Source: an uncultured Alistipes sp.
GTDB lineage: Bacteria > Bacteroidota > Bacteroidia > Bacteroidales > Rikenellaceae
Direction of reading: 5' to 3'
DNA length: 64,000 bases
Assembly (NCBI GenBank): GCA_947623305.1
Contig: CANQGQ010000013.1
Location: 1 to 64,000 of the forward strand
Below are positions 2,904 through 50,333 of the stretch, in pieces (positions within the stretch are counted from its first letter, which is position 1; every line of letters starts with the position of its first letter). A program made the position numbers and the translations under genes. Under the pieces are notes generated by a model, which had not been told where the DNA came from, searched no databases, and saw nothing but the letters and a program-made list of their open reading frames with translations.

Positions 2904-4238
2904 TTATTCGGTTGTAACTTCCATCATCGGCCGACAATAGGTCTTATTGACGACACGATCGCGCATCAGTCGCATATCGTTGAAATTGCGCGAGATATTC
3001 TGAACGATTTCGATGTAGTTGTCCGTGCCGTCCGGTTTTTCGTAATAGAACGGCTTAATCGACACACAGTTTTTATGCTCAAAAAGCGTATTGAGCAATG
3101 TACGGTCAGAAATTCCGCACGAATGCCCCATAATATAAATCTGAAACGGTGCGGAATCTATGAACGAAAGCAATTTGCGATAGTTATCCGTTTCAAGGTA
3201 GCAAATGGATTTGATGTTCTTCAAATAGTCGTTATCGTTCAACTTGGCGATCGCCTTGTAATCGTCATCCAGCTCATCCCCGTAGCCGAATATAATCGGA
3301 TTCTTCTCGTTGCCCAACTCGCCATGAATATGGTTTACCTTGAACTCGGAGCCTTTCGTAAGATATAGGTCTGCGGTTTTTGTATAATTGAAATTCAACA
3401 ATAAGATTTGGTCGGGCCACAAAAAACAATCGGGAACAATACTTCGCTGTTTATTTACATTTTGGATGTGTTTTATAAAATCGAAAGATTTTGTTTTTTC
3501 AGAATCTTTCGACTCGACAACAACCGATTCTCCATAATTGTCAATGTCGGAATGGTTGTACAAATATTCCCATCCAAATCGGCTTAAAAAATACCGTATT
3601 TCATATTCATTTTTAGTAAATATATATTCTAACCGATTGATTAAAAACTGCTCGAATTTTGCATTTTCGCTATTCGATATATCGTTCGGATTGAATGGCT
3701 CATAGATAATTTGTCGAATGCAATCCTTTACAAGTTCCGGCTTAATGAATTTAGCCTGAATATATGCCAAATAAACAACAAGATTCTCTTCCAATATCTT
3801 CAACTCATCGTTGAGTTTATTCGGATCAGCATACTCGCATTCGTCCTGTTTGAAAATCTTTGTTAGCCAATGATAATATACAGCCTCAATATCCACCCAG
3901 GACTTTGTTTCGATAGCCTTGTTTATTGCTTCGAAAAATCTGCTTTCGTATTTGAAATGATCGTTGAAGAACGTATCATAGCGTTCTGTCATAGTGATCT
4001 CTCCCACATTGTTTACATATCGAAACATATTATTACTCAGCATCCACCGAAACTTCTCCATGAGTTTTCGATCTTCCGAATTGGAAATTTCGACAGAACA
4101 TAGACCATCGATTAGTTCGTATTCACCTTCCAATAATCTGAGTTTTAGAGTAAAATAATATCCGCGGATAAAATCCGCATAACTTGTTTTCAGTCCATGC
4201 GCCAAATCGAAACCGTTGCCGATAAGTATTATCCTGTT
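2904..4238 (-). CDS. abiH: AbiH family abortive-infection protein
   Basis: N-terminus MNRIILIGNGFDLAHGLKTSYADF is the AbiH signature; internal Met at 4238 chosen over ORF-track start 4271. Confidence 0.85.
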   Translation of the reverse strand, partial: NRIILIGNGFDLAHGLKTSYADFIRGYYFTLKLRLLEGEYELIDGLCSVEISNSEDRKLMEKFRWMLSNNMFRYVNNVGEITMTERYDTFFNDHFKYESRFFEAINKAIETKSWVDIEAVYYHWLTKIFKQDECEYADPNKLNDELKILEENLVVYLAYIQAKFIKPELVKDCIRQIIYEPFNPNDISNSENAKFEQFLINRLEYIFTKNEYEIRYFLSRFGWEYLYNHSDIDNYGESVVVESKDSEKTKSFDFIKHIQNVNKQRSIVPDCFLWPDQILLLNFNYTKTADLYLTKGSEFKVNHIHGELGNEKNPIIFGYGDELDDDYKAIAKLNDNDYLKNIKSICYLETDNYRKLLSFIDSAPFQIYIMGHSCGISDRTLLNTLFEHKNCVSIKPFYYEKPDGTDNYIEIVQNISRNFNDMRLMRDRVVNKTYCRPMMEVTTE

Positions 4239-4445: not shown

Positions 4446-4709
4446 ATGAACGAGAAGCTGAATCGGGTAATCGGCATGTACGGCATTACCTTGACAGACA
4501 AACATTTTATTATCCCCAATAAGGAAGAATATGGTGTGCTTTATAACGACGGGGAGATCGGGTACGATGAAATCGCCGGTATAGACGTCGACGGGGCTTT
4601 CGTGCGGATCCGTTTGACGAACGGCTACCTGTTTCGGCTCTATTGTCGGGAACCGCTTTTGACTTGTACTTACATGAACAGTACGGCCAACGATCCGCTG
4701 TCGTTTTGA
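4446..4709 (+). CDS. Small hypothetical protein
   Basis: ORF MNEKLNRVIGMYGITLTDKHFIIPNKEEYGVLYNDGEIGYDEIAGIDVDGAF...; divergent from abiH. Confidence 0.45.
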   Translation: MNEKLNRVIGMYGITLTDKHFIIPNKEEYGVLYNDGEIGYDEIAGIDVDGAFVRIRLTNGYLFRLYCREPLLTCTYMNSTANDPLSF

Positions 4710-4763
4710 ATAACAGCGAGAGGTTATTATAAAAAATCCGACTTGAACGGAAGTCGGAGCGGA

Positions 4764-4800
4764 CAAAAAATCCGGCGGTTGTTACCGCCGGATTTTTTCG
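4764..4800. terminator. Hairpin terminator
   Basis: aaaaaatccggcggttgttaccgccggattttttcg. Confidence 0.75.
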
Positions 4801-4816
4801 CGCCATAAGGCCGGCC

Positions 4817-5008
4817 TTACTCGGAAGTCGTATCTTTCGCTTGCAGTTCGAGCAGTTGTTTCAGCATATAGGCATAATTCTCGCCTATGGTATGCCCCGA
4901 CGGCATTTTGTAGGGACTGTCAATGCAATCTCGGCATTGTTCGATGGCCTTGTCCAAATCGGTAACGGTTACGGGTTTTCCCTCCAAATCTTTGATATTC
5001 GTCTTCAT
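4817..5008 (-). CDS. Small ICE hypothetical protein
   Basis: MKTNIKDLEGKPVTVTDLDKAIEQCRDCIDSPYKMPSGHTIGENYAYMLKQLLELQAKDTTSE within ORF 4817..5260. Confidence 0.6.
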   Translation of the reverse strand: MKTNIKDLEGKPVTVTDLDKAIEQCRDCIDSPYKMPSGHTIGENYAYMLKQLLELQAKDTTSE

Positions 5009-5097
5009 TTTTCCAAACTTTATATGCCGCCGCGAAAGGCGGCGAAAAATTATAACGACCGGAGGGTGCAATAAAAAAGTCGCCCTCAGGTTATTAT

Positions 5098-5361
5098 TCA
5101 CTCTGCCGTTATTCGTTCGATACGCATGTTTTGCATCAACCACGCCCGAACATGCGGCATATTGTATTCGGAAGTGATGACCGCCGTACGGTCGTCGGCC
5201 CATGTAAAGCGGGTGCTTTCGTAGTTGTCTATCCACGCTTTCAAGGTCGAAACGCCCCATGTTCGGCTATCCTCGAAGAAAGTATCCACAACCGTTCTCG
5301 GTTCGGTGAAAGTTACGATTAACGTATCGTATGCGGGGTTATATGTTGCTTCGGTATTCAT
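5098..5361 (-). CDS. Small ICE hypothetical protein
   Basis: MNTEATYNPAYDTLIVTFTEPRTVVDTFFEDSRTWGVSTLKAWIDNYESTRF... within ORF 5098..5571. Confidence 0.5.
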   Translation of the reverse strand: MNTEATYNPAYDTLIVTFTEPRTVVDTFFEDSRTWGVSTLKAWIDNYESTRFTWADDRTAVITSEYNMPHVRAWLMQNMRIERITAE

Positions 5362-5378
5362 AATAGGATAAGGTTTTA

Positions 5379-5618
5379 TTATTCGTTTAACATTCGGTTT
5401 CTGTCCGCGAGCCAAGCATCGCGTTTTTCGCGGCATTTGTCGAGCGTCGGAGCGACGCACGAGAACAATTCGCCGTCCGTGTGGCGGTAGTCGTATTGGC
5501 AATACCGGTTCCGTTTGCGTGGACGTGGCATAAGGTCGAAATACTCGTATCGTTCCTCTCCCGTCGGGCAAACCGATACGCCGGTTACGGTCATCTTCGT
5601 TGTTTCCATCGTTATCAT
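5379..5618 (-). CDS. DUF3873-like ICE protein
   Basis: TKMTVTGVSVCPTGEERYEYFDLMPRPRKRNRYCQYDYRHTDGELFSCVAPTLDKCREKRDAWL. Confidence 0.7.
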   Translation of the reverse strand: MITMETTKMTVTGVSVCPTGEERYEYFDLMPRPRKRNRYCQYDYRHTDGELFSCVAPTLDKCREKRDAWLADRNRMLNE

Positions 5619-5628
5619 TGTTTAGGGG

Positions 5629-5892
5629 TTAAAACTCTGCTATCATCAGTCGATGCGCGAAACACTGCGTCGGGTCGCTGGCCTTGCGCTGATACACCCA
5701 AAAGTGATGCGCACCGAAGCCGTAGACAAAATAGTCGTCGAGCGGGATTTGGGCTTTCAGTTTCTCGATACCTTGCCGCAGTTCGTTCTCGTTGCCGGCT
5801 AAAAGTATCGTGTTTGTCAGTCGGAGGTAAGCCTCCGTTACTTCGTCGCAATAAGGACAAAAGATTGTTTCGATCGTTACGTTCATAATCAC
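5629..5892 (-). CDS. Small ICE hypothetical protein
   Basis: ORF in the same minus-strand ICE accessory operon; FCPYCDE motif near N-terminus. Confidence 0.55.
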   Translation of the reverse strand: MIMNVTIETIFCPYCDEVTEAYLRLTNTILLAGNENELRQGIEKLKAQIPLDDYFVYGFGAHHFWVYQRKASDPTQCFAHRLMIAEF

Positions 5893-5911
5893 ATGATTTT
5901 AGGATTGTTCG

Positions 5912-7193
5912 TTAGGCAATCATACGTTGTACGATAAGGGGCATGTTCTTTCGGACGAGTTTCACGATGCGCTTGTGGTACTCGGTTTGCGAATTGCAGA
6001 CGCCGCGACTTTGCACGATGTCGAATGTCGCCAACGATACCTCGACCGTTTCGATGCGCTGCCCGCCGATGGACGCCGAAAGAATAAGCGAATCGGGACG
6101 TTTGTAGTAGGCATTGCTGAACACGCAGTGGTGCATGGCCTTTCCCTCCTCGTAGAACTCCCGCACGCTCTCCAATACGCGGACGGTGATTTTCTTGTCC
6201 GAAAACGCCAGCCCGAAGAATCGGGACTTCTGCTCCCGATAGGTCGATTCGTTTTCACGGATGCGACGCTGCTGCTCTTCGAGGCGTTCGCGCTCGATAC
6301 GCTCCTGCCGTTTGTGCATCCAGCGGTCGTGCTCGGCCTGCAAGTCGGTCGGACAAACGTATTTCGGATTGTGCAGGTCTTTTCCGAAGTTCCGCAATTC
6401 GTCGAGGTAGTCGCACCACAACGAACCGTCGGGAACGATATAACCGTTGCGTGCTGCGATTTTGACGGACGGCCAATAGGTGTCTATCCGGTCGTAACTA
6501 TGGAGCGAGAAATGCTGCAAGAGGGGAATTTGTCCGATTTTGAGCAGCGTTTCCAGCCGATTGCAGGCAAGCAGTCCATGAATCAGCCGGAACGGGGGTA
6601 AGTCCGTAGGTCTTGCCTGTAAATCCGCGCTGCCGCAGTTCGGGAATAATCGACATACGGGGATAAATCGCCTGCGGCAAAACGTCGTACAACTGTTTGT
6701 CGGGACGCACTTCCAAATCGCTCGACCATATCCAGCTGTCCGACCAGCCGAACATCGGGCGCAGTTTGGCCAGTGGCACGGTACGTCCGTCTGGAGCAAT
6801 CCAACGCTGTACTACCTCATCCATCCAATAGCCTGCTTTATGCCCGATTTTGCGATAGGTATTCACGAAGAAGAAGCGCAATACTTGAAAGCCTTTGCAG
6901 GTCGTGAGGACGCAGAAATAGGCACTCTCGGCAAAGATACGTTTACGGGTCTGCACGACCTGCAACTTGGTACCGCAGTTCGGGCAGATACTGCCGCAAA
7001 GGCTGTCGGCCAACGCTCCGTCGCTCTGCCACGTGTGGCCGCACTCCGTGCAGGTAATAACGCCTTTGGCGGTTCTGCGGCCGATGTGGTCGAAGCAATG
7101 GTGGCAGGCATAGGCTTCCTGCGCTTTGGTGATGCGGGGCAAACGGCGGCTCAAACGGGCGACTTCTTTCTGTATTTTGGTCTTGGGTTTCAT
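5912..7193 (-). pseudogene. PcfJ-like protein, split by an apparent frameshift
   Basis: N-terminal part in ORF 6498..7193 (zinc-ribbon-like CxxC motifs), C-terminal part in ORF 5912..6799 (MHHCVFSNAYYKRPDSLILSA, typical of PcfJ); frames switch at the G5 run 6594-6598. Confidence 0.7.
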
Positions 7194-7209
7194 GGTGTTC
7201 TGCTTTTGA

Positions 7210-7620
7210 TTAGAATAATAGGTTCATTTGCCGGTTATTGTCGCTCTGCTTCTTGGCGGCAGGCTTGCGCTGAGTAAGTTTAGCGTAGGCTTCGTTCTCG
7301 GCGCGCTTCATGGCATCGCGGTGTGCCTGCGCTTTCTCCTCCTCAGTCAGTTCGATGGTGTGATTGACCACGACGCGGCAGTTTACCGATTTGCCGACCT
7401 CGATGTCGGGTTCGTCGTAGTAGTGGAGCGCCATCGAATAAATCTCCTCGTCGGCGAAGCCGTTGCAGCCGCTCGCCCGCACTTCGTTCAGAATGTAGGT
7501 TGTGCAATCGTCGATGTTCTTCTTCGGGTCGGCATAACGCGCGGCGAAAAGTTCGTCCGTAGCGGCGCGATACTCCAAATAGGTCTGTATCGTCTGCTTG
7601 AAATAGTCCGTTGTTTTCAT
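7210..7620 (-). CDS. PcfK-like family protein
   Basis: MKTTDYFKQTIQTYLEYRAATDELFAARYADPKKNIDDCTTYILNEVRASGCNGFADEEIYSMALHYYDE... Confidence 0.8.
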   Translation of the reverse strand: MKTTDYFKQTIQTYLEYRAATDELFAARYADPKKNIDDCTTYILNEVRASGCNGFADEEIYSMALHYYDEPDIEVGKSVNCRVVVNHTIELTEEEKAQAHRDAMKRAENEAYAKLTQRKPAAKKQSDNNRQMNLLF

Positions 7621-7664
7621 AATCGTCTCTTTTGCGGGGCGGTTACCCGCCCCTTGTTCAACCT

Positions 7665-8669
7665 CTATTCGTTCTTGCCGATAAGTCGGCGTACCTGCTC
7701 CTCTTTGCTCTTTTGGAATATCCAGCCCGCCTTCTTCTCGCCCTCGTGGGTCAGTCGGCTGTTGAAGCGTCCGCCGAGTGCGGATAACTCCGCCTTGATA
7801 GGCTTCGTGTCGCCGAATACGGCAATCGCCTTGTCGGAGTAGTCCACGAGGATGAAATCCCCCAGCACGACCGTTTCCGACCGCTTGCCCGACCGCTCCG
7901 CAGTCGCGCCCGACAAGCGGATGTTCTCCTCGTCGCCCGCCGTGTAGGCGAAATCTTCGATAGTCCGTTCGCGGTTGTATATGGGCGTTTTCTTGATAAT
8001 CCACCCGTAGTATTTGCTTTGGCCGAGATAGTAGCCTGCGCCCATCGAGTATTTCTCGCGGTGTTCGTACTCCTCGTTCGGTTCGGACAGATAGGCCGTT
8101 TCGGGGAAGTTGGCGGCATGTTTGCGCATCTCCGAAAACAAGTCCCGTGTATGCGAGGAGAAACCCAAAATCACGGTGCGGACGGTACGATAGGCGAAGT
8201 AGTCCGTCATGTGGTCGCTCTCGTCTTGGCGGAGTTCCGCGACGATGACCGCCTTTGCCGTCGGGGGCAGCATCGCGGCGAAGCGTTCGCGCCCGACAGC
8301 CTTTACTTGCTCGACCCGCTGCCGTTCCTGTTCGGCCTGCCGCGCCCGCTCTGCGGCTTTCTTCTCGGCTTCCTCCACGAGCAGGGCCACCTCGAAAGCG
8401 TCCATAAATTCGGGATTCTTATCGTCGTAGTATCTGCCGATGCCGTGCTTGCAGGAAAGAGGTTGCAGAATATCCGTGCGGTCTATTTCTTTCGTTTCGA
8501 GGTTCAGCAGATGATACATATAACCGTCTGCCGTATGCTCCACTTTGTAGACTACATAGCGGTTCATTGCCATGTAAGGCCCGTAACCGATGATGATTTG
8601 ATTCTCTTTGACTACCTGCACGGTCGTGTCCGTCGTCGTGCCGCCGAATAATGAAATGTACTTTGTCAT
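7665..8669 (-). CDS. Conserved Bacteroidetes ICE protein of unknown function
   Basis: 334-aa ORF ending LSALGGRFNSRLTHEGEKKAGWIFQKSKEEQVRRLIGKNE, upstream of the PcfK gene. Confidence 0.65.
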   Translation of the reverse strand: MTKYISLFGGTTTDTTVQVVKENQIIIGYGPYMAMNRYVVYKVEHTADGYMYHLLNLETKEIDRTDILQPLSCKHGIGRYYDDKNPEFMDAFEVALLVEEAEKKAAERARQAEQERQRVEQVKAVGRERFAAMLPPTAKAVIVAELRQDESDHMTDYFAYRTVRTVILGFSSHTRDLFSEMRKHAANFPETAYLSEPNEEYEHREKYSMGAGYYLGQSKYYGWIIKKTPIYNRERTIEDFAYTAGDEENIRLSGATAERSGKRSETVVLGDFILVDYSDKAIAVFGDTKPIKAELSALGGRFNSRLTHEGEKKAGWIFQKSKEEQVRRLIGKNE

Positions 8670-8681
8670 AGCTGTAAGTGT

Positions 8682-8933
8682 TTAGAAAATGCGTGTGAAT
8701 AGAAAGTGAAAGAAGCCGACGAGAGCCGCGAGAGAAACCAACCCGCGAAGCATCCCCAGCAGGATATTCCGGCAGAACACGAAGCCCAGCACTACCCAAA
8801 TGAAGCCCTCGCCCCACGTGTAAAACCCCAACGCCGCCGCGCCGAGCAGCAGCCATGTCGTCCGACTCGACCCTATGCCAAGTGGAAAGGTGGAGGATTT
8901 CTGTTTCCGTTTATTTTTCTCTGTGCTTCTCAT
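8682..8933 (-). CDS. Small membrane protein
   Basis: Two hydrophobic stretches (TTWLLLGAAALGFYTW; FIWVVLGFVFCRNILLGMLRGLVSLAALVGFFHFLF). Confidence 0.55.
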   Translation of the reverse strand: MRSTEKNKRKQKSSTFPLGIGSSRTTWLLLGAAALGFYTWGEGFIWVVLGFVFCRNILLGMLRGLVSLAALVGFFHFLFTRIF

Positions 8934-9412
8934 AACCTTCGACTTTTTTTTATATGCCGTAGCGGAGCCGGTATGGATGGAATCTGTTTCGGGAGCTCGG
9001 AAGGTTCGGAATCAGCTCGCAACAAGATTTTTGCGGAAAATACGCTTCGCATGTCGGGTGAAGGAAGATTTTCCGCAAAACCGACTTGTCGGCCCGATCT
9101 TGTAAGAGCGTCGATTCCGGGAATACCTTCGCTGCCGATAACAGATACATCCACTACCGGCCCGTACAGACAAAATGAAACGGGGAGAAGGTTATCGGGG
9201 AGAAGCACAGAGATAAATCGTTTCGCAGCGAGCGTAAAAATGGACCGTTCGCTACGCTTTACCCTTGCTATCTCGCGGCTCTCGTAGAAAACAGCCGCAT
9301 ACTGCCGGTTCGGTGCCTCAATGTACCGCTGCCGCTCATGCTACAACCCCATAGCTTGGTATTTGTCTATATTGCCGAACCGGGAAAGGAATAATCGAAA
9401 CAAATCGACATC

Positions 9413-9721
9413 ATGGACATTATCAGTATGGATACACGGCTTTTCGATACGCTTCTCCGGCGTATGAAAGCCATCGAAGAAAAAGTAACGGCTTTATGCG
9501 CTCGTGGGGAAGACCTGAAGCTGAAGCGTTGGTTGGACAATCAGGAGGTATGCGAGATTCTCGGAATCACGCAGCGTACATTGCAGACTTACCGCAATAA
9601 GGGATTGTTGGCATATACCTGCATTCGCCGCAAAATCTTCTACAAACCCGAAGATGTGGAAAACCTTTTACGGAGTGCCTATCACACTAAAGCCGCCGCA
9701 TCATGCAGAACTATCTCATAG
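9413..9721 (+). CDS. Helix-turn-helix (MerR/excisionase-like) protein
   Basis: WLDNQEVCEILGITQRTLQTYRNKGLLAYTCIRRKIFYKPEDVENLL. Confidence 0.8.
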   Translation: MDIISMDTRLFDTLLRRMKAIEEKVTALCARGEDLKLKRWLDNQEVCEILGITQRTLQTYRNKGLLAYTCIRRKIFYKPEDVENLLRSAYHTKAAASCRTIS

Positions 9722-10020
9722 GACAGCAGGAACCGTGCATCGAGGATTTGCTCGAACGTATGGAAAAGACGGAAAAAGCACTCGACCGACAGTTGAAAAC
9801 GGCAGTTGCCGATCGTGTTTTCGGCGGCGAACAATTCCTCTCCGACGTACAGTTGTCGCAACGGTTGCATATCAGTCGTCGCACGTTGCAGGATTATCGT
9901 TCTGTCGGAGTCCTGCCGTACTATCTCATCAGCGGAAAGGTTATTTACAAAGAATCGGATATTCAACGGATGTTGGAGAAAGCATACCGACCCATTTTCG
10001 ATAGTCGGAATCTGGTGTAG
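9703..10020 (+). CDS. Second helix-turn-helix protein, overlapping the first
   Basis: FLSDVQLSQRLHISRRTLQDYRSVGVLPYYLISGKVIYKESDIQRML. Confidence 0.8.
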   Translation: MQNYLIGQQEPCIEDLLERMEKTEKALDRQLKTAVADRVFGGEQFLSDVQLSQRLHISRRTLQDYRSVGVLPYYLISGKVIYKESDIQRMLEKAYRPIFDSRNLV

Positions 10021-10030
10021 TAAGAAAAGC

Positions 10031-10057
10031 AAAAGACGGCTCAACAGCCGTCTTTTG
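10031..10057. terminator. Bidirectional hairpin terminator
   Basis: aaaagacggctcaacagccgtctttt between converging genes. Confidence 0.75.
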
Positions 10058-10070
10058 TCTTATCGAGAGG

Positions 10071-10430
10071 TTAGTTCAATATTGCTCCGTCGGTAGTCGG
10101 TATCTTCCAGACGATTTCGGGCGTTGTCGTCCGTTCGATAATCCATTTGCGAAATACCTCTGCTTTTTCGGATTTCAGTCGAAATGCCAGTGCCGTAATC
10201 ATTTCAAGATTGTAGCGTTCGACGAAAGTTCCGTTTCGGCTGCGTGTGCGTTGGAAAACGCAGTCTTCTTGTAGAACACCGCTTTTAAGAATGGAGCGGA
10301 TATTCGCATGCACGGCGGAGGTGAATACGCCGAACAGGTCGGCGATCTGGTTTTGCGTAAGCCAAACGTCAGTTGCATTGGAGCGGATCATTACCCGCCC
10401 GTTTTCGATAGTTATGGGTCGTGCCGTCAT
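10071..10430 (-). CDS. RhuM-like protein
   Basis: WLTQNQIADLFGVFTSAVHANIRSILKSGVL...TFVERYNLEMITALAFRLKSEKAEVFRKW. Confidence 0.7.
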   Translation of the reverse strand: MTARPITIENGRVMIRSNATDVWLTQNQIADLFGVFTSAVHANIRSILKSGVLQEDCVFQRTRSRNGTFVERYNLEMITALAFRLKSEKAEVFRKWIIERTTTPEIVWKIPTTDGAILN

Positions 10431-11728
10431 AATCGTGCTCTTTTATCGGGTGCTTGCATTTTTGTATTCTGCGGTTCTTCATAAAGTTCGAGTTTGCGAC
10501 TGGCGGACAGTTGTCGTAATTGCTTCGTGTCCTCGTCTACTTTCTTATCCGTAACATGGGCATAGATTTGTGTCGTTACGAGCCGCTTGTGTCCCATCAT
10601 GCGGCTGACAGTTTCGAGCGGTACACCCAACGAAAGCGTAATATGCGTTCCGAAGTTATGTCGTGCCATATGAAAAGTCATATTTCCGATTCCATAGGCT
10701 GTACCTAATCGGGGAATCAGTCGTTGTAATTTCTTGTAAGGACAAATCGGCAGCAGTCGATCATCGGTACGCTCCGCTTTGTATTTCTCGATAATCCGCA
10801 TCGGTATATCCAGCAATCTAATAACTGATTCCGTGTCGGTCTTTTGGCGTCGGATATGTATCCACCAAACACCCTCGTCATCCTGCGATAAGTGCTTTGT
10901 AGATAGCTGTTTCAGGTCTGCATAGGCCAATCCCGTGAAGGTGGAGAAGATAAACCAATCCCGCACCCGTTGCAGTACCGGGTCGGCGACCTGCTCGGCA
11001 AGCAGACGTTTCAAGTCGTCGAGTTTCAAATGACGACTCTTGCGTTTGGGCAATTCCGGGTGCAGATTGCAATAGGGATCGCGGCGCAATGTTCTTTGAT
11101 TGACCGCCCGCACGGTCATCTTCTTCAACCGATACAAATGTTCGTGCACCGACTTCTGTTGTAAGTGCCGGTCTGTCCGCAAGAATAAATCGAACGCATC
11201 GTAGAACTCTTGGTCGAGGCTTCGTAAGGTTATATCTTCTTGCCCGCATTTCTCCTGCACGAACTCCAGCAGGTGGTTGTAAGACCGGATATAACTCTTG
11301 TAGGTTTCTTTCGTGCGGTCTATTCCCACTCGTTTGGAAAACTCTTCGTTGTGCTCCCGAAACAGAGCCAGCAGGGTCAGCGGCTTTTGCCCGATGCCTT
11401 TCAGGGCGTTCTTAACCAGCTCGGCCGTTACAAAACCGAGAGATAGGTTGATGCGATTGTAGTGCGTCTTGATTTCCTCTGTCAGAGCATCTATTGCTCG
11501 GTTCACTTCGTTGGCATTGCGGCTACGCCCGTCGGCACGCCCCGTCGTCGGGTTCCAAATGGCCGGATCGACCGCGACTTTGGTTCCGATTTGCGCCGCT
11601 TCGGCGTCGATACTTATTCTGCATAAGAGCTGACACATGCCGTCTTTTCGGACTTTCGTGCGATTGATATAGAACAGTATGGCGAATGTACTTCGGCGCA
11701 CTTTATTTTCAGTATTCGGAGCTTTCAT
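10427..11728 (-). CDS. Tyrosine-type site-specific integrase
   Basis: Catalytic C-terminus MARHNFGTHITLSLGVPLETVSRMMGHKRLVTTQIYAHV; start Met at 11728. Confidence 0.9.
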   Translation of the reverse strand: MKAPNTENKVRRSTFAILFYINRTKVRKDGMCQLLCRISIDAEAAQIGTKVAVDPAIWNPTTGRADGRSRNANEVNRAIDALTEEIKTHYNRINLSLGFVTAELVKNALKGIGQKPLTLLALFREHNEEFSKRVGIDRTKETYKSYIRSYNHLLEFVQEKCGQEDITLRSLDQEFYDAFDLFLRTDRHLQQKSVHEHLYRLKKMTVRAVNQRTLRRDPYCNLHPELPKRKSRHLKLDDLKRLLAEQVADPVLQRVRDWFIFSTFTGLAYADLKQLSTKHLSQDDEGVWWIHIRRQKTDTESVIRLLDIPMRIIEKYKAERTDDRLLPICPYKKLQRLIPRLGTAYGIGNMTFHMARHNFGTHITLSLGVPLETVSRMMGHKRLVTTQIYAHVTDKKVDEDTKQLRQLSASRKLELYEEPQNTKMQAPDKRARL

Positions 11729-21699: not shown

Positions 21700-22265
21700 C
21701 ACCGGATGCCGATAAAGGTTTCGAGAATGCGGGCGGTTTCGGCGATAGCCTCGTCGAGACGGTCGTTCAGTACGATGTGGTCGAATCCCGATGCCTTGGT
21801 CAGTTCGAATTCCGCCTTGGCGACCCGACGGTCGATGACTTCCGGTGCCTCGGTGCCTCGGTTTTCGAGCCGGCGGCGCAGCTCTTCGATCGAGGGCGGC
21901 ATGATGAAGATCGCGCACGCATCGTTTCCGAAGATGCGCCGGAGGTTCAGCCCTCCGATGACATCGACGTCGAACAGGATGGTGTGCCCCTTGGCCCAGA
22001 TGCGTTCCACTTCGGTGCGCAACGTGCCGTAGCAGGTGCCCTGATAGACCTCCTCCCACTCCACGAACCGGTTTTCGGCCACGGCCTGCATGAATTCCTC
22101 CTGCGTGAAGAAGTAATAATCCTTGCCGTGCCGCTCGCATCCGCGCGGGGCGCGGCTGGTGGCCGAAATCGAAAATTCGAGCTGCGGGTACCGCTCCAAG
22201 AGTGCCCGAACGATGGTGGTTTTTCCGGAACCGCTCGGCGCGGAGAATATGACGACTTTGCCCAT
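21699..22265 (-). CDS. gmk: Guanylate kinase
   Basis: GKVVIFSAPSGSGKTTIVRALLER...FSISATSRAPRGCERHGKDYYF. Confidence 0.95.
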   Translation of the reverse strand: MGKVVIFSAPSGSGKTTIVRALLERYPQLEFSISATSRAPRGCERHGKDYYFFTQEEFMQAVAENRFVEWEEVYQGTCYGTLRTEVERIWAKGHTILFDVDVIGGLNLRRIFGNDACAIFIMPPSIEELRRRLENRGTEAPEVIDRRVAKAEFELTKASGFDHIVLNDRLDEAIAETARILETFIGIR

Positions 22266-23366: not shown

Positions 23367-23435
23367 ACCGAAGCCCCCGCCAAGGCGGGGGTTTGGGGGT
23401 GGGTCAAAACTGAATACGCGGCTAAGCTGCGAGCG
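23367..23435 (+). repeat. Dispersed two-hairpin structured repeat, copy A
   Basis: ccgaccgaagcccccgccaaggcgggggtttgggggtgggtcaaaactgaatacgcggctaagctgcgagc; close match to copy B at 42881. Confidence 0.8.
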
Positions 23436-45474: not shown

Positions 45475-45549
45475 CGGGGTGTAGCGCAGTCCGGTTAGCG
45501 CGCCAGCTTCGGGAGTTGGAGGTCGCTGGTTCGAATCCAGTCTCCCCGA
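45475..45549 (+). tRNA. tRNA-Pro (anticodon CGG)
   Basis: Cloverleaf from CGGGGTGTAGCGCAGTCCGGTTAGCGC; anticodon arm CCAGC-TTCGGGA-GTTGG; T arm GCTGG-TTCGAAT-CCAGT. Confidence 0.9.
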
Positions 45550-45556
45550 CAAGATG

Positions 45557-45591: not shown

Positions 45592-45626
45592 GTTGAGTGC
45601 CGAATCCAATCCAGAACATGCGCAAT

Positions 45627-46322
45627 ATGAAAAAACTGGTCGTTTTTACCGGCGCCGGCGTGAGTGCCGATAGCGGATTATCGACTTTCCGCGATGCGGA
45701 GGGTTTGTGGGCGAATTATCGGATCGAAGACGTTTGTACGCCCGAGGCTTTGGCGCGGGATCGTGTTACGGTCGTGAAGTTCTATAACGAACGGCGCCGT
45801 GAAATGCTGGCTGCGAAGCCCAATGCGGGGCATGGCGCGATCGCTGCTTTGGAACAGGATTTCGCCGTCGAAGTGGTAACGCAAAATGTCGATAATCTGC
45901 ACGAACGGGCCGGTTCGACCCATGTAACTCATCTGCATGGCGAATTGACCAAGTTGCGATCTTCCCGTAATCCGGATTTGATCGTGCCGCTCGATGGCTG
46001 GGAGCAACGGCTGGAAGCTACGGCCCCCGATGGTTCGCTGCTGCGACCGCATATCGTCTTTTTCGGCGAGGCGGTTCCTCAGTTCGAACGGGCTGCGGAA
46101 ATCGCGGCACAAGCCGATTTGATGGTAGTCGTCGGTACTTCGTTGGCGGTCTATCCTGCTGCCTCTTTGGTGCGTTATGTCCGTCCGGAAATACCGCTTT
46201 TCGTGGTCGACCCGGGTAATCCGGATACCTCCGGCATCCGAAATCCGCTGACCGTTATTCGTAAACGGGCAGCCGAGGGGATGCCCGAGCTGGCCGCGCT
46301 GTTGCGGGAAAAATATCGTTGA
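45627..46322 (+). CDS. cobB: Sir2-family NAD-dependent deacylase
   Basis: MKKLVVFTGAGVSADSGLSTFRDAEGLW...VVTQNVDNLHERAGS...HLHGEL; alternative start 45597. Confidence 0.93.
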   Translation: MKKLVVFTGAGVSADSGLSTFRDAEGLWANYRIEDVCTPEALARDRVTVVKFYNERRREMLAAKPNAGHGAIAALEQDFAVEVVTQNVDNLHERAGSTHVTHLHGELTKLRSSRNPDLIVPLDGWEQRLEATAPDGSLLRPHIVFFGEAVPQFERAAEIAAQADLMVVVGTSLAVYPAASLVRYVRPEIPLFVVDPGNPDTSGIRNPLTVIRKRAAEGMPELAALLREKYR

Positions 46323-46359: not shown

Positions 46360-46572
46360 CTATAATTTATGGTAATGGCAATAGAGCAGCTGCCCGTTGT
46401 CATCATGCAGGTGCATGCCGCCGCCCAAACAGTAACGGAACATCTTGCAGTCGGCGCATCCGTCTTGTCGAGCCCATTCGCGGCCGTAGAAAGCGGCTAT
46501 CATCTTTAAACAGCATGAACCGCAATCCATGGCGTCGGGCTGCCGGTCAAGAGGAAAACGATGGAGCTTCAT
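46360..46572 (-). CDS. Chimeric ORF: C39-peptidase-like N-terminus fused to a copy of the radical SAM/SPASM C-terminus
   Basis: MKLHRFPLDRQPDAMDCGSCCLKMIAAFYG (C39-like) + REWARQDGCADCKMFRYCLGGGMHLHDDNGQLLYCHYHKL (same as the tail of 48990..50066). Confidence 0.75.
   Translation of the reverse strand: MKLHRFPLDRQPDAMDCGSCCLKMIAAFYGREWARQDGCADCKMFRYCLGGGMHLHDDNGQLLYCHYHKL
46361..46483 (+). repeat. Direct repeat (copy 1) of the radical SAM gene 3' end
   Basis: About 5 mismatches over 123 nt against 48991-49113. Confidence 0.9.
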
Positions 46573-48899
46573 CGCATTCGGTCGATTTCCGTCCGGCTAC
46601 CCGATTTCGACCGGTACTGATATTGGGATTTGCCGAATTTATAAGTTATGTTCAGACTGACGTACCGTGAATCGTCCGTGAAAAGATTCCAGTTGCCGCC
46701 CGGCAAAACGGAGCGCTGATACCCCTGCGATTTGCGGAAAAGGTCGTTGGCCGTAATCCGGCATGACAGGGCCCCTTCCAGGAAATCCTTGCGCAAAGAG
46801 GTATACAGATTCCAATAGGAACCGGAGTAATAGGTTCCCCGGCTACCGGCGCTGCACCAGTCGAAACTCACGTCCCACATCAGCTTTCCGGGCAAGATGA
46901 ACGTATTGGTTGTATACACCGCCCAATGGGGCGTATCGTTGTTCCGGCGAATACCCTCCATGTCGACATATTTGTATTCCGACCCGGACAGGCCTGCATA
47001 GAGCGAAGTCGTCCACCACTTGCAGAGATCTTTGTTATAGCTCGCGCTGACCACGAACGACCGGGACTTCGGTTCGTTGACATAACCCACGGTATGTACA
47101 TAAGGATTCTCTTCGTCGCGGGAAACGGTGAAAAAAGTCGGGTGGATATGGTAATTGTAGCCGAGACGAATGTTCAAATCTTTCCACAAACCCAGCGTCA
47201 GTTGAAATACATGCGACTTTTCCGATTTCAGGTCGGGATTCCCCTTTCGGGTCATGAGCGAATCGGCGGAAACCAACGTCGGATCGAGTTCAGTCAGCGA
47301 CGGACGGTTCAAACGTTTGGTATAAGAGATGCCGATTTTGAGATTTTCGGATAGGTCGTATCCGAGAAGCACGCTCGGAAACCAATCCAGCGTCGAACGG
47401 GCAACATACCGGATGCTGTTGTTGCGCCCCTCCCGGCTGTTGTATTCGGCTCTCAGACCTCCACGCAACTCGATCTTGTCGTTGACGCGGGCCGTCAGCG
47501 AAACATAACCAGCCATATTCCACTCCGTAGACCTGTAATCCTGCGAAGAGTTGGTGCTGCCGGTCTGAACGGTAAGATTATCGGCCTCGATCCGATAATA
47601 TTTCAAGCCGGTTTCCATCCGCCATGTTTTGCCGATCGGCTTGCAGTAATCGGCTCTCAACGAATAGAGGTCGTTGGTTCCGGCATTGTCGTTCGTGTTG
47701 ATGAACGGCTTTTCCGGAACGGGCGTACCTTCCGGCACGTTATAATAAGGATGGGTGCTTTTGCCGTCGGAACGGTAGAAATCGCCCACCACGGCGAATG
47801 TTTGCCCCAGCGTATCTATCTGCCAATCGTAATAAACCGACTGCCCGATTTGCCAGGAGCGGGTATTATCGTCGGAATAGGTTGCGAACGGTCGTAGCCG
47901 CGGATCGTCCGACCAAGAATAGGAATAGTCGTCGCCTATGCTGCGTGCATGGTATCCCGTACTTTGCAATCCGACGGTGTGCCCTTGCGCCGGGGTGTAG
48001 GACAAGGCGACATGATATTGCTGGTTCCGTTCGCGGAAAAGATACTCCGTATCATGAAATATCTTATAAACGTCGTCTGGTGAAATATGTCCGTACTCGC
48101 CATTGTTGCCGCGATCGCTGCGGTAACCGTAATATAAGGAGACGCTGAATTTGTCTTTGGACCAATGCCCTTCGGCGAAACCTCCGGCACTCGTTTTTCT
48201 GGACTGCGTGAACGTGCCCCCGAGCCGGACGGAATAACGATCTTCTTGTCGGATCGTGCGAATGAGAATGACGGCGTTGCCTTGGGCATCGTATGCGGCG
48301 GGAGGATTGTCGATGATTTCGATGCTCTTGATATTCTGCGGATTGAGCATCTTGATCTCTGCGGCCGACTGCACGCGGCGATTATCCAGATAGATCGTAG
48401 CGGCTCCTTTCCCGAAAACGCCGATGTCTCCGTTGCGGTCCACCGTCAATCCAGGCGTTTTTCGGAGCATCTCCACGCCGTCCGCTGCACTGTTCAAGAT
48501 GCTCCCTTCAACCTGCACGATCATTCGATCCGGCTTGCTTATGATCGCAGGGCGGCGGGCCTTCACCACGACTTCGTCGATGGTCTCGACGGCCGGCATC
48601 AAGATCAAGGTTCCGACATCCTCCTGTCCTCCCCGCAGAGTCAAAGGCCGCATCAGATCCTCGTATCCCAATCCGGAAAGTTGCAGCAGAACGCTGCCCG
48701 CAGCTTCGGTTTCGACCGAAAGATTCCCATTGAAACACGCCGTGCCGGCAATGAACAATGAATCGGAAGCCCTGAGAATCATCGCATTGAAACAATCGAT
48801 CGGAACTCCGTCCTTGTCTTGCACCGTTCCCCGGACATGCGTTTGCGAAAAGGCACTATTGCCCAATACCGCCAATATGCAGCAAAGAAAAAACCTCAT
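46569..48899 (-). CDS. Outer-membrane beta-barrel protein (TonB-receptor-like)
   Basis: Signal peptide, carboxypeptidase-like region, VETIDEVVVKARRPAIISKPDRMIVQVEGSILNSAADGVEMLRKTPGLTVDRNGDIGVFGKGAATIYLDNRRV plug-like region, long beta-rich C-terminus. Confidence 0.88.
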   Translation of the reverse strand: MRFFLCCILAVLGNSAFSQTHVRGTVQDKDGVPIDCFNAMILRASDSLFIAGTACFNGNLSVETEAAGSVLLQLSGLGYEDLMRPLTLRGGQEDVGTLILMPAVETIDEVVVKARRPAIISKPDRMIVQVEGSILNSAADGVEMLRKTPGLTVDRNGDIGVFGKGAATIYLDNRRVQSAAEIKMLNPQNIKSIEIIDNPPAAYDAQGNAVILIRTIRQEDRYSVRLGGTFTQSRKTSAGGFAEGHWSKDKFSVSLYYGYRSDRGNNGEYGHISPDDVYKIFHDTEYLFRERNQQYHVALSYTPAQGHTVGLQSTGYHARSIGDDYSYSWSDDPRLRPFATYSDDNTRSWQIGQSVYYDWQIDTLGQTFAVVGDFYRSDGKSTHPYYNVPEGTPVPEKPFINTNDNAGTNDLYSLRADYCKPIGKTWRMETGLKYYRIEADNLTVQTGSTNSSQDYRSTEWNMAGYVSLTARVNDKIELRGGLRAEYNSREGRNNSIRYVARSTLDWFPSVLLGYDLSENLKIGISYTKRLNRPSLTELDPTLVSADSLMTRKGNPDLKSEKSHVFQLTLGLWKDLNIRLGYNYHIHPTFFTVSRDEENPYVHTVGYVNEPKSRSFVVSASYNKDLCKWWTTSLYAGLSGSEYKYVDMEGIRRNNDTPHWAVYTTNTFILPGKLMWDVSFDWCSAGSRGTYYSGSYWNLYTSLRKDFLEGALSCRITANDLFRKSQGYQRSVLPGGNWNLFTDDSRYVSLNITYKFGKSQYQYRSKSGSRTEIDRMR

Positions 48900-48989: not shown

Positions 48990-50066
48990 TTATAATTTAT
49001 GGTAATGGCAATAGAGCAGCTGCCCGTTGTCATCATGCAGGTGCATGCCGCCGCCCAAGCAGTAACGGAACATCTTGCAGTCGGCGCATACGCCTTGCCG
49101 AGTCCATTCGCGGTTGCGGAAAGGGCCGAACCGATTTTCCCAAACCTCCCAGAAATCATCGCGATAGATATTTCCTTGATGGAAGTTGGCTCGGATAGAG
49201 GTACATCCCGATATGGCTCCGTCGACCCGGATGGATGCCACGGATATTCCGGCGGCGCATTGATAGAAATGATCGCGCACCTCGGCTTCGTAATCGCCTA
49301 AAAAACCTTCGCACGCGTAGCTGACATCAATCGTCTTTTCGCGGCGGGTGCGGCGGATGAAATCCAATAACGTGCGGAATTGTTCATCGCTCAAGCGTAA
49401 CGATGCGTCGTCGCGTGCACGTCCCATTGGAAAAATCGAGAAAATCCGCCAATGTTCGACGCCTTCGGCGATCAACCGGTCGCGAAACGGCTCCAAACGG
49501 GGAATAAGAGCACCTGTGGCACAGGTGATTACGTCATACGCCAAAGTCGGTTTCTGCACGATGAGCCGGATGGCCTGCATCGCCCGTTCGAAGCTCGACG
49601 AATTGCCCCGCAGGTAATTGTGCTCCTGTTCGAATCCGTCTAAACTGACGGAGATACTTCGCAAACCGGCGTGCATCAATCGTTCGAACCGCTGCGGTGT
49701 CAGTGCCATGCCATTGGTAACCATGCCCCACGGATACCCGCGGCGCGTTACTTCGCTACCGGCCTCCTCTAAATCCTCCCGGACCAATACCTCGCCGCCC
49801 GAAAAGATGATGAACACCTTGCTCGGATCGACGTGGGGCGTGATTTGTTCGTCGAGTACCTTCAAAAAGTCCGCTAACGGCATGTCCGGCACGTCGGGAG
49901 CGACCCGGCAATCGCTTCCGCAATGCCGACACGAAAGATTGCAGCGCAAGGTGCATTCCCAGAAAAGCGTGTTCAACCGATGTTCGGCAACCGTTTCCTT
50001 ATAAAGATTCGAGAAAAGATCGAGGGCCCACCGTTTCCGGAGTCCCAATTTGCGGCCGGAACCCAT
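48990..50066 (-). CDS. Radical SAM/SPASM protein, rSAM/lipoprotein-system type
   Basis: FWECTLRCNLSCRHCGSDC (CxxxCxxC), FSGGEVLVREDL, SPASM-like CADCKMFRYCLGGGMHLHDDNGQLLYCHYHKL. Confidence 0.88.
   Translation of the reverse strand: MGSGRKLGLRKRWALDLFSNLYKETVAEHRLNTLFWECTLRCNLSCRHCGSDCRVAPDVPDMPLADFLKVLDEQITPHVDPSKVFIIFSGGEVLVREDLEEAGSEVTRRGYPWGMVTNGMALTPQRFERLMHAGLRSISVSLDGFEQEHNYLRGNSSSFERAMQAIRLIVQKPTLAYDVITCATGALIPRLEPFRDRLIAEGVEHWRIFSIFPMGRARDDASLRLSDEQFRTLLDFIRRTRREKTIDVSYACEGFLGDYEAEVRDHFYQCAAGISVASIRVDGAISGCTSIRANFHQGNIYRDDFWEVWENRFGPFRNREWTRQGVCADCKMFRYCLGGGMHLHDDNGQLLYCHYHKL
48991..49113 (+). repeat. Direct repeat (copy 2), 3' end of the radical SAM gene
   Basis: Matches 46361-46483. 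Confidence 0.9.
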
Positions 50067-50072
50067 GAACGG

Positions 50073-50333
50073 TTATTTTTCGTTCGGTTGCGGTTGCGAT
50101 TCCGAAACCTGTGCGGTGCTGTCCTGTTGCAGGACGGAATTCAAGGATTTGTGCTCGGTCGGAGCGTCGGGGATGCGAACTCCGTACATGACGATAACAG
50201 GACGGTCGATTCGAACTGTGTCGGCTGGTGCCTCCGTATCGCCCGATCCTTTCGAAGGCGCGTTTTTTACGGTGGAGCAAGCCGCCGAGAACCCCAGCAG
50301 AGCCGCCAATGCGAGTTTCAGTTTCCTGTTCAT
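50073..50333 (-). CDS. Small putative lipoprotein, likely partner of the radical SAM enzyme
   Basis: MNRKLKLALAALLGFSAACSTVKNAPSKG...PVIVMYGVRIPDAPTEHKSLNSVLQQDSTAQVSESQPQPNEK; 7 bp upstream of the radical SAM gene on the same strand. Confidence 0.75.
   Translation of the reverse strand: MNRKLKLALAALLGFSAACSTVKNAPSKGSGDTEAPADTVRIDRPVIVMYGVRIPDAPTEHKSLNSVLQQDSTAQVSESQPQPNEK

Follow-up and report, generated by a model that had tools for sequence, protein, structure and literature searches.

This locus raises the question of what a 70-aa ORF on the minus strand (46360..46572) of the 64-kb window, by which we mean the whole stretch of DNA that was analysed, represents. The initial annotation had read it as a chimera of a C39-peptidase-like N-terminus and the C-terminus of a neighbouring radical SAM enzyme (rSAM), and the ORF is present at 46360-46572 as it was translated there. 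Residues 6-33 matched Peptidase_C39 (Pfam PF03412) with 23.0 bits (E 7.6e-5; gathering cut-off 22), the match covering only positions 2-29 of the model, and residues 5-34 shared 70% identity over 30 aa with the N-terminal end of the 736-aa C39 ABC exporter of a congener (G071), which confirms the proposed N-terminus. On these matches and the alignment, 46483..46572 (minus strand) holds codons 1-30 of a C39 peptidase ABC exporter. Residues 26-70 matched the last 45 positions (305-349) of TIGR04133 with 60.9 bits (E 9.5e-17), below the cut-off of 425 for this family; the tail keeps part of the SPASM ligands and has no radical SAM CxxxCxxC core. At the DNA level, 46360..46482 (minus strand) repeats the last 123 nt of the rSAM gene, its stop codon among them, and differs from 48990-49112 at 6 of 123 positions; the likeness to the tail of the radical SAM protein 2.6 kb away was thus borne out at 117/123 identical nucleotides, and this pair is the only direct repeat of at least 60 nt in the window. 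The shared part consists of 40 codons plus the stop, from codon 31 (CGC GAA TGG) onward, and identity to the rSAM gene begins within the joint CCGCGAATGG (46474..46483, minus strand), which is itself identical to the rSAM gene and would also have matched the lost C39 sequence over a short stretch, as judged from a YGR/YGK motif. With the stop codon that the tail copy brings, the remnant forms an uninterrupted frame of 70 aa.

The minus strand carries, in this order, a lipoprotein gene (50073..50333), an intact gene for a TIGR04133 radical SAM/SPASM protein (48990..50066; 596 bits, cut-off 425), a spacer of 90 nt, an intact gene for a 776-aa outer-membrane beta-barrel protein, OMP_b-brl_3 (46569..48899; PF14905, E 1.8e-68), the 70-aa ORF, and 37 nt; then come a Sir2-family gene on the opposite strand (45621..46322, plus; PF02146) and tRNA-Pro(cgg) (45475..45550, plus), a syntenic landmark downstream of the rSAM gene in relatives. 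The ATG of the ORF had been reported to overlap the stop of the barrel gene, and this is correct, the overlap being the 4-nt ATGA at 46569..46572 (minus strand). The barrel gene is the surviving gene of a lost exporter cassette, and the rSAM end at 48990-49112 is the source or the sister of the copied tail. Despite the conservation of the pair, the lipoprotein that accompanies the TIGR04133 enzyme across the genus matched no NCBIfam or Pfam family. A short palindrome, CCGCCAAGGCGG, occurs five times in the window against 0.6 expected, exactly at 23377, 42894, and 48978 and with one mismatch at 21812 and 33972; the rSAM stop is directly followed by one of these copies.

A full-length cassette was found in G071 at L047 (G071:C2) 4701-11471, where a 60-aa double-glycine precursor (GG-type, MSKILGG followed by NAEMGCVCRCGTN...), a SPASM radical SAM enzyme, a barrel gene, and the 736-aa C39 ABC exporter follow one another; the barrel is 27-29% identical to that of the window. 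A 162-aa ORF without a Pfam match stands there in the usual position of a membrane-fusion protein, and genes that we take, from reading them, to be TraG- and MobA-like adjoin the cassette. Among the 19 Bacteroidales exporters whose N-termini were nearest to the stub and in which the motif could be located, five have an OMP_b-brl_3 gene ending right before the exporter start, and barrel-plus-PCAT arrangements have been described for Bacteroidales RiPP clusters (PMC10352776). The barrel gene of the window is rare: with one genome per species, 4 of the 180 genus genomes, counting that of the window, matched at E 1e-60, and among them G060 (75% amino acid identity) and G012 (71%) hold orthologs. 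A scan of named genomes for such orthologs gave the equivalents of G060 and G012 together with two distant matches; the G012 contig ends inside the barrel gene and is uninformative on a downstream C39 sequence. In G060, the ortholog lies at another site, behind mnmE, and is followed, after the same 4-nt ATGA overlap, by a C39 relic whose start is broken by a CAG-to-TAG stop and by a frameshift. In a second frame, this relic can be aligned to the G071 exporter up to residue ~57, with a score that 0 of 2000 base shuffles reached; the common ancestor therefore had C39 sequence past the point at which the window copy breaks off, and the exporter losses in the window and in G060 differ. Compared with G060, the barrel gene gave a dN of 0.156 and a dS of 0.969, values that show evolution under constraint, though the greater part of this evolution may date from before the exporter was lost.

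A search of the window's own genome for other pieces of the lost exporter found none beyond the 30-residue stub, and a translocation of the remainder was accordingly not found there. In this genome, neither a barrel gene nor a C39 relic lies at the mnmE locus, and a move of the barrel segment from that site was rejected on this ground. Contig 14 of the same genome carries a separate intact C39 exporter, 48-54% identical to the G071 exporter and unrelated to the stub. It lies in a cluster (L035, G000:C14, 874-12368) that, as we name the genes from their translations, presumably comprises TolC-like and membrane fusion-like proteins, the C39 exporter, a thioredoxin/VKOR-like protein, a TonB-type barrel, and two GLPGLI-type proteins. 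Short C39 starts were also seen in other genomes: L109 (G301:C78) has another broken exporter start of ~30 residues at ~3324-3500, with later frames that resemble a distant domain part, and L111 (G496:C4) has a cluster in which a full exporter is accompanied by three shorter frames with a C39 start (253, 147, and 94 aa), one short frame standing directly behind a barrel gene.

The ORF is very likely a non-functional recombination joint, in which the start of a C39 exporter was fused to a copied rSAM end after the exporter had been lost. A segment with a barrel and a C39 exporter of the double-glycine peptide export kind would have come between the TIGR04133 rSAM and Sir2 genes; the exporter and everything behind it would then have been lost from codon 31 onward, and the break joined to sequence copied from the 3′ end of that same rSAM gene, probably at the short match CCGCGAA(TGG). 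C39 exporters show Y-G-R/K at the joint position in the alignment, which would make a match of some seven bases plausible there. The likeliest route would be a single illegitimate exchange in which a chromosome with the cassette recombined with a copy of the locus that lacked it and carried the rSAM tail, flank, and Sir2 gene. A tandem duplication followed by a deletion could have given the same product, in two steps where the exchange requires one. The initial annotation had proposed a deletion scar, and this proposal stands, given the longer C39 relic in G060, the full-length barrel-exporter order in G071, the lack of a remainder in the own genome, and the absence of the chimera from the other 179 genus genomes.

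Relatives show the site without the cassette. In G176 and G075, the rSAM and Sir2 genes are convergent, with ~100 and ~80 nt between their ends and nothing in between; the G176 proteins are 95% (rSAM) and 96% (Sir2) identical to those of the window. In G048 and G070, the gap holds an SPFH/Band 7 gene. Because relatives have either arrangement, the barrel and stub would most simply be an insertion in the lineage of the window. The SPFH/Band 7 gene itself is present or absent between rSAM and Sir2 among close relatives (L049 8101-9066; L122 4055-5017), and in L049 a small ORF overlaps its end. An insertion flanked by direct repeats of a gene 3′ end could also be the remnant of an integrative element that used the rSAM 3′ end for attachment, with the 123-nt repeats as attL/attR and the exporter truncated at the element end; the copy nearer Sir2 may moreover carry the native flank (TAGGGC versus TAAGGC in G176). 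We consider such an element quite improbable, as only the barrel gene and stub, and no integrase or mobility gene, lie between the repeats, the repeat starts inside the exporter reading frame, and the G060 barrel segment sits elsewhere with no duplicated gene end, which would have pointed to an attachment-site element. The flank after the copied stop (GGGC...) is closer to that of G176 (AGGC...) than to the sequence behind the full rSAM gene of the window (ACCG...), which hints that the copy and the Sir2 side may have come from a cassette-free allele.

The 70-aa product could instead be a small Cys-rich protein with a function, such as a regulator that binds metal or Fe-S or a decoy for the lipoprotein maturase. 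The frame is open, its start is coupled to the barrel stop, and the SPASM tail supplies several Cys residues; the open frame does count against reading the ORF as a relic, since a working small protein would look alike. However, none of the 179 other genus genomes carries the chimera, so that the same ORF was not seen in many genomes, an occurrence that would have spoken for a maintained gene. A search of viral contigs gave no instance of the exact joint. C39 peptidases need Cys, His, and Asp, the latter two being His101 and Asp117 in LahT (PMC6363468); the stub has a Cys at the nucleophile position (Cys17, in DCG), but the alignment gives no counterpart of the triad His and Asp, and the tail lacks the radical SAM core. 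Furthermore, relative to G048 and the rSAM gene, three bases are private to the tail copy, each of them changing an amino acid and none silent, which are too few for a selection test; the rSAM gene has two in the same comparison, both silent. A functional product is therefore very improbable, and the initial suggestion of a tiny Cys-rich protein is left without support. There is very little probability for the variant in which the ORF is a recent expressed fusion whose SPASM tail docks on partners of the TIGR04133 lipoprotein system, so that a novel Cys-rich regulatory peptide is translated together with the barrel protein.

The initial annotation had also allowed for a second maturase, and a TIGR04133-like enzyme of the exporter cassette could have stood downstream and left its tail behind, given that a SPASM enzyme accompanies the full-length cassette of G071. 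When related genomes were checked for a barrel, a C39 exporter, and a radical SAM gene together, as had been proposed, this cassette was indeed found in full length, but its enzyme lies upstream of the barrel and belongs to another family (best NCBIfam match, TIGR04463). In addition, the tail copy is nearer to its own rSAM gene than to any relative (11/123 differences for the next nearest, G048 and G176, and 11/123 or more for the others). A lost second maturase is exceedingly improbable and is not needed, since the 123 nt of the tail were recently copied from the end of the neighbouring gene itself. At one of the three copy-private positions (tail codon 9, T to A), G176, G075, and G070 share the base of the copy. 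The copy may therefore derive from another strain or be older than a change in the resident rSAM gene, and its dating is uncertain; the proposal that it clearly postdates the split from G048 was weakened by the same base. The resident enzyme is likewise not the maturase of the cassette, contrary to the link to the exporter that had been implied: the lipoprotein-rSAM pair beside csp and pfk (pfk-csp-lipo-rSAM) is conserved in many genus genomes without a barrel or C39 gene, and a connection of TIGR04133 to the exporter cassette was rejected for this reason. The neighbouring radical SAM gene provided the tail and is otherwise a bystander. The literature yielded nothing useful on TIGR04133. An assembly error that joined two repeat-bearing contigs can practically be dismissed in spite of a draft assembly of 87 contigs and a repeat of ~123 nt, because the copy has bases of its own and unique sequence on both sides, which mark it as distinct and short enough for reads to span.

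The ORF is very probably an ordinary genome scar, a pseudogene joint and not a new protein, of modest value as a record of cassette decay. Both of its parts come from separate genes known intact elsewhere, and in relatives the ORF is absent or, in G060, replaced by a differently broken C39 relic. In this genus, the exporter of peptide-export cassettes is lost and an intact outer-membrane barrel gene remains, and two species have independently broken C39 relics behind orthologous barrel genes at different chromosomal sites. The 70-aa ORF should be annotated neither as a bacteriocin exporter nor as a radical SAM protein, and the neighbourhood gives no ground for tying the TIGR04133 lipoprotein system to peptide export.

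Among known systems, the ORF resembles the C39 peptidase-containing ABC exporters (PCAT/AMS; PF03412) with a coupled barrel (PMC10352776) in its exporter start, in the barrel-then-exporter order, and in the ATG overlap, but only 30 codons are left, without the peptidase His and Asp, the membrane domain, or the ATPase domain. Unlike in the barrel-coupled RiPP clusters of Bacteroidales (PMC10352776), no precursor or cassette maturase lies beside it. Its last 40 codons copy the enzyme end of the TIGR04133 rSAM/lipoprotein system, whereas the radical SAM core is missing and the SPASM ligands are partial, the tail having been acquired. The ORF is also like the chimeric pseudogenes that arise from illegitimate or homology-facilitated illegitimate recombination, in which parts of two unrelated genes meet at an apparent short match and sequence is lost; it differs from them in that its donor end is a copy, almost unchanged, of sequence from a gene of this locus that lies 2.6 kb away, joined by what would be a comparable route.
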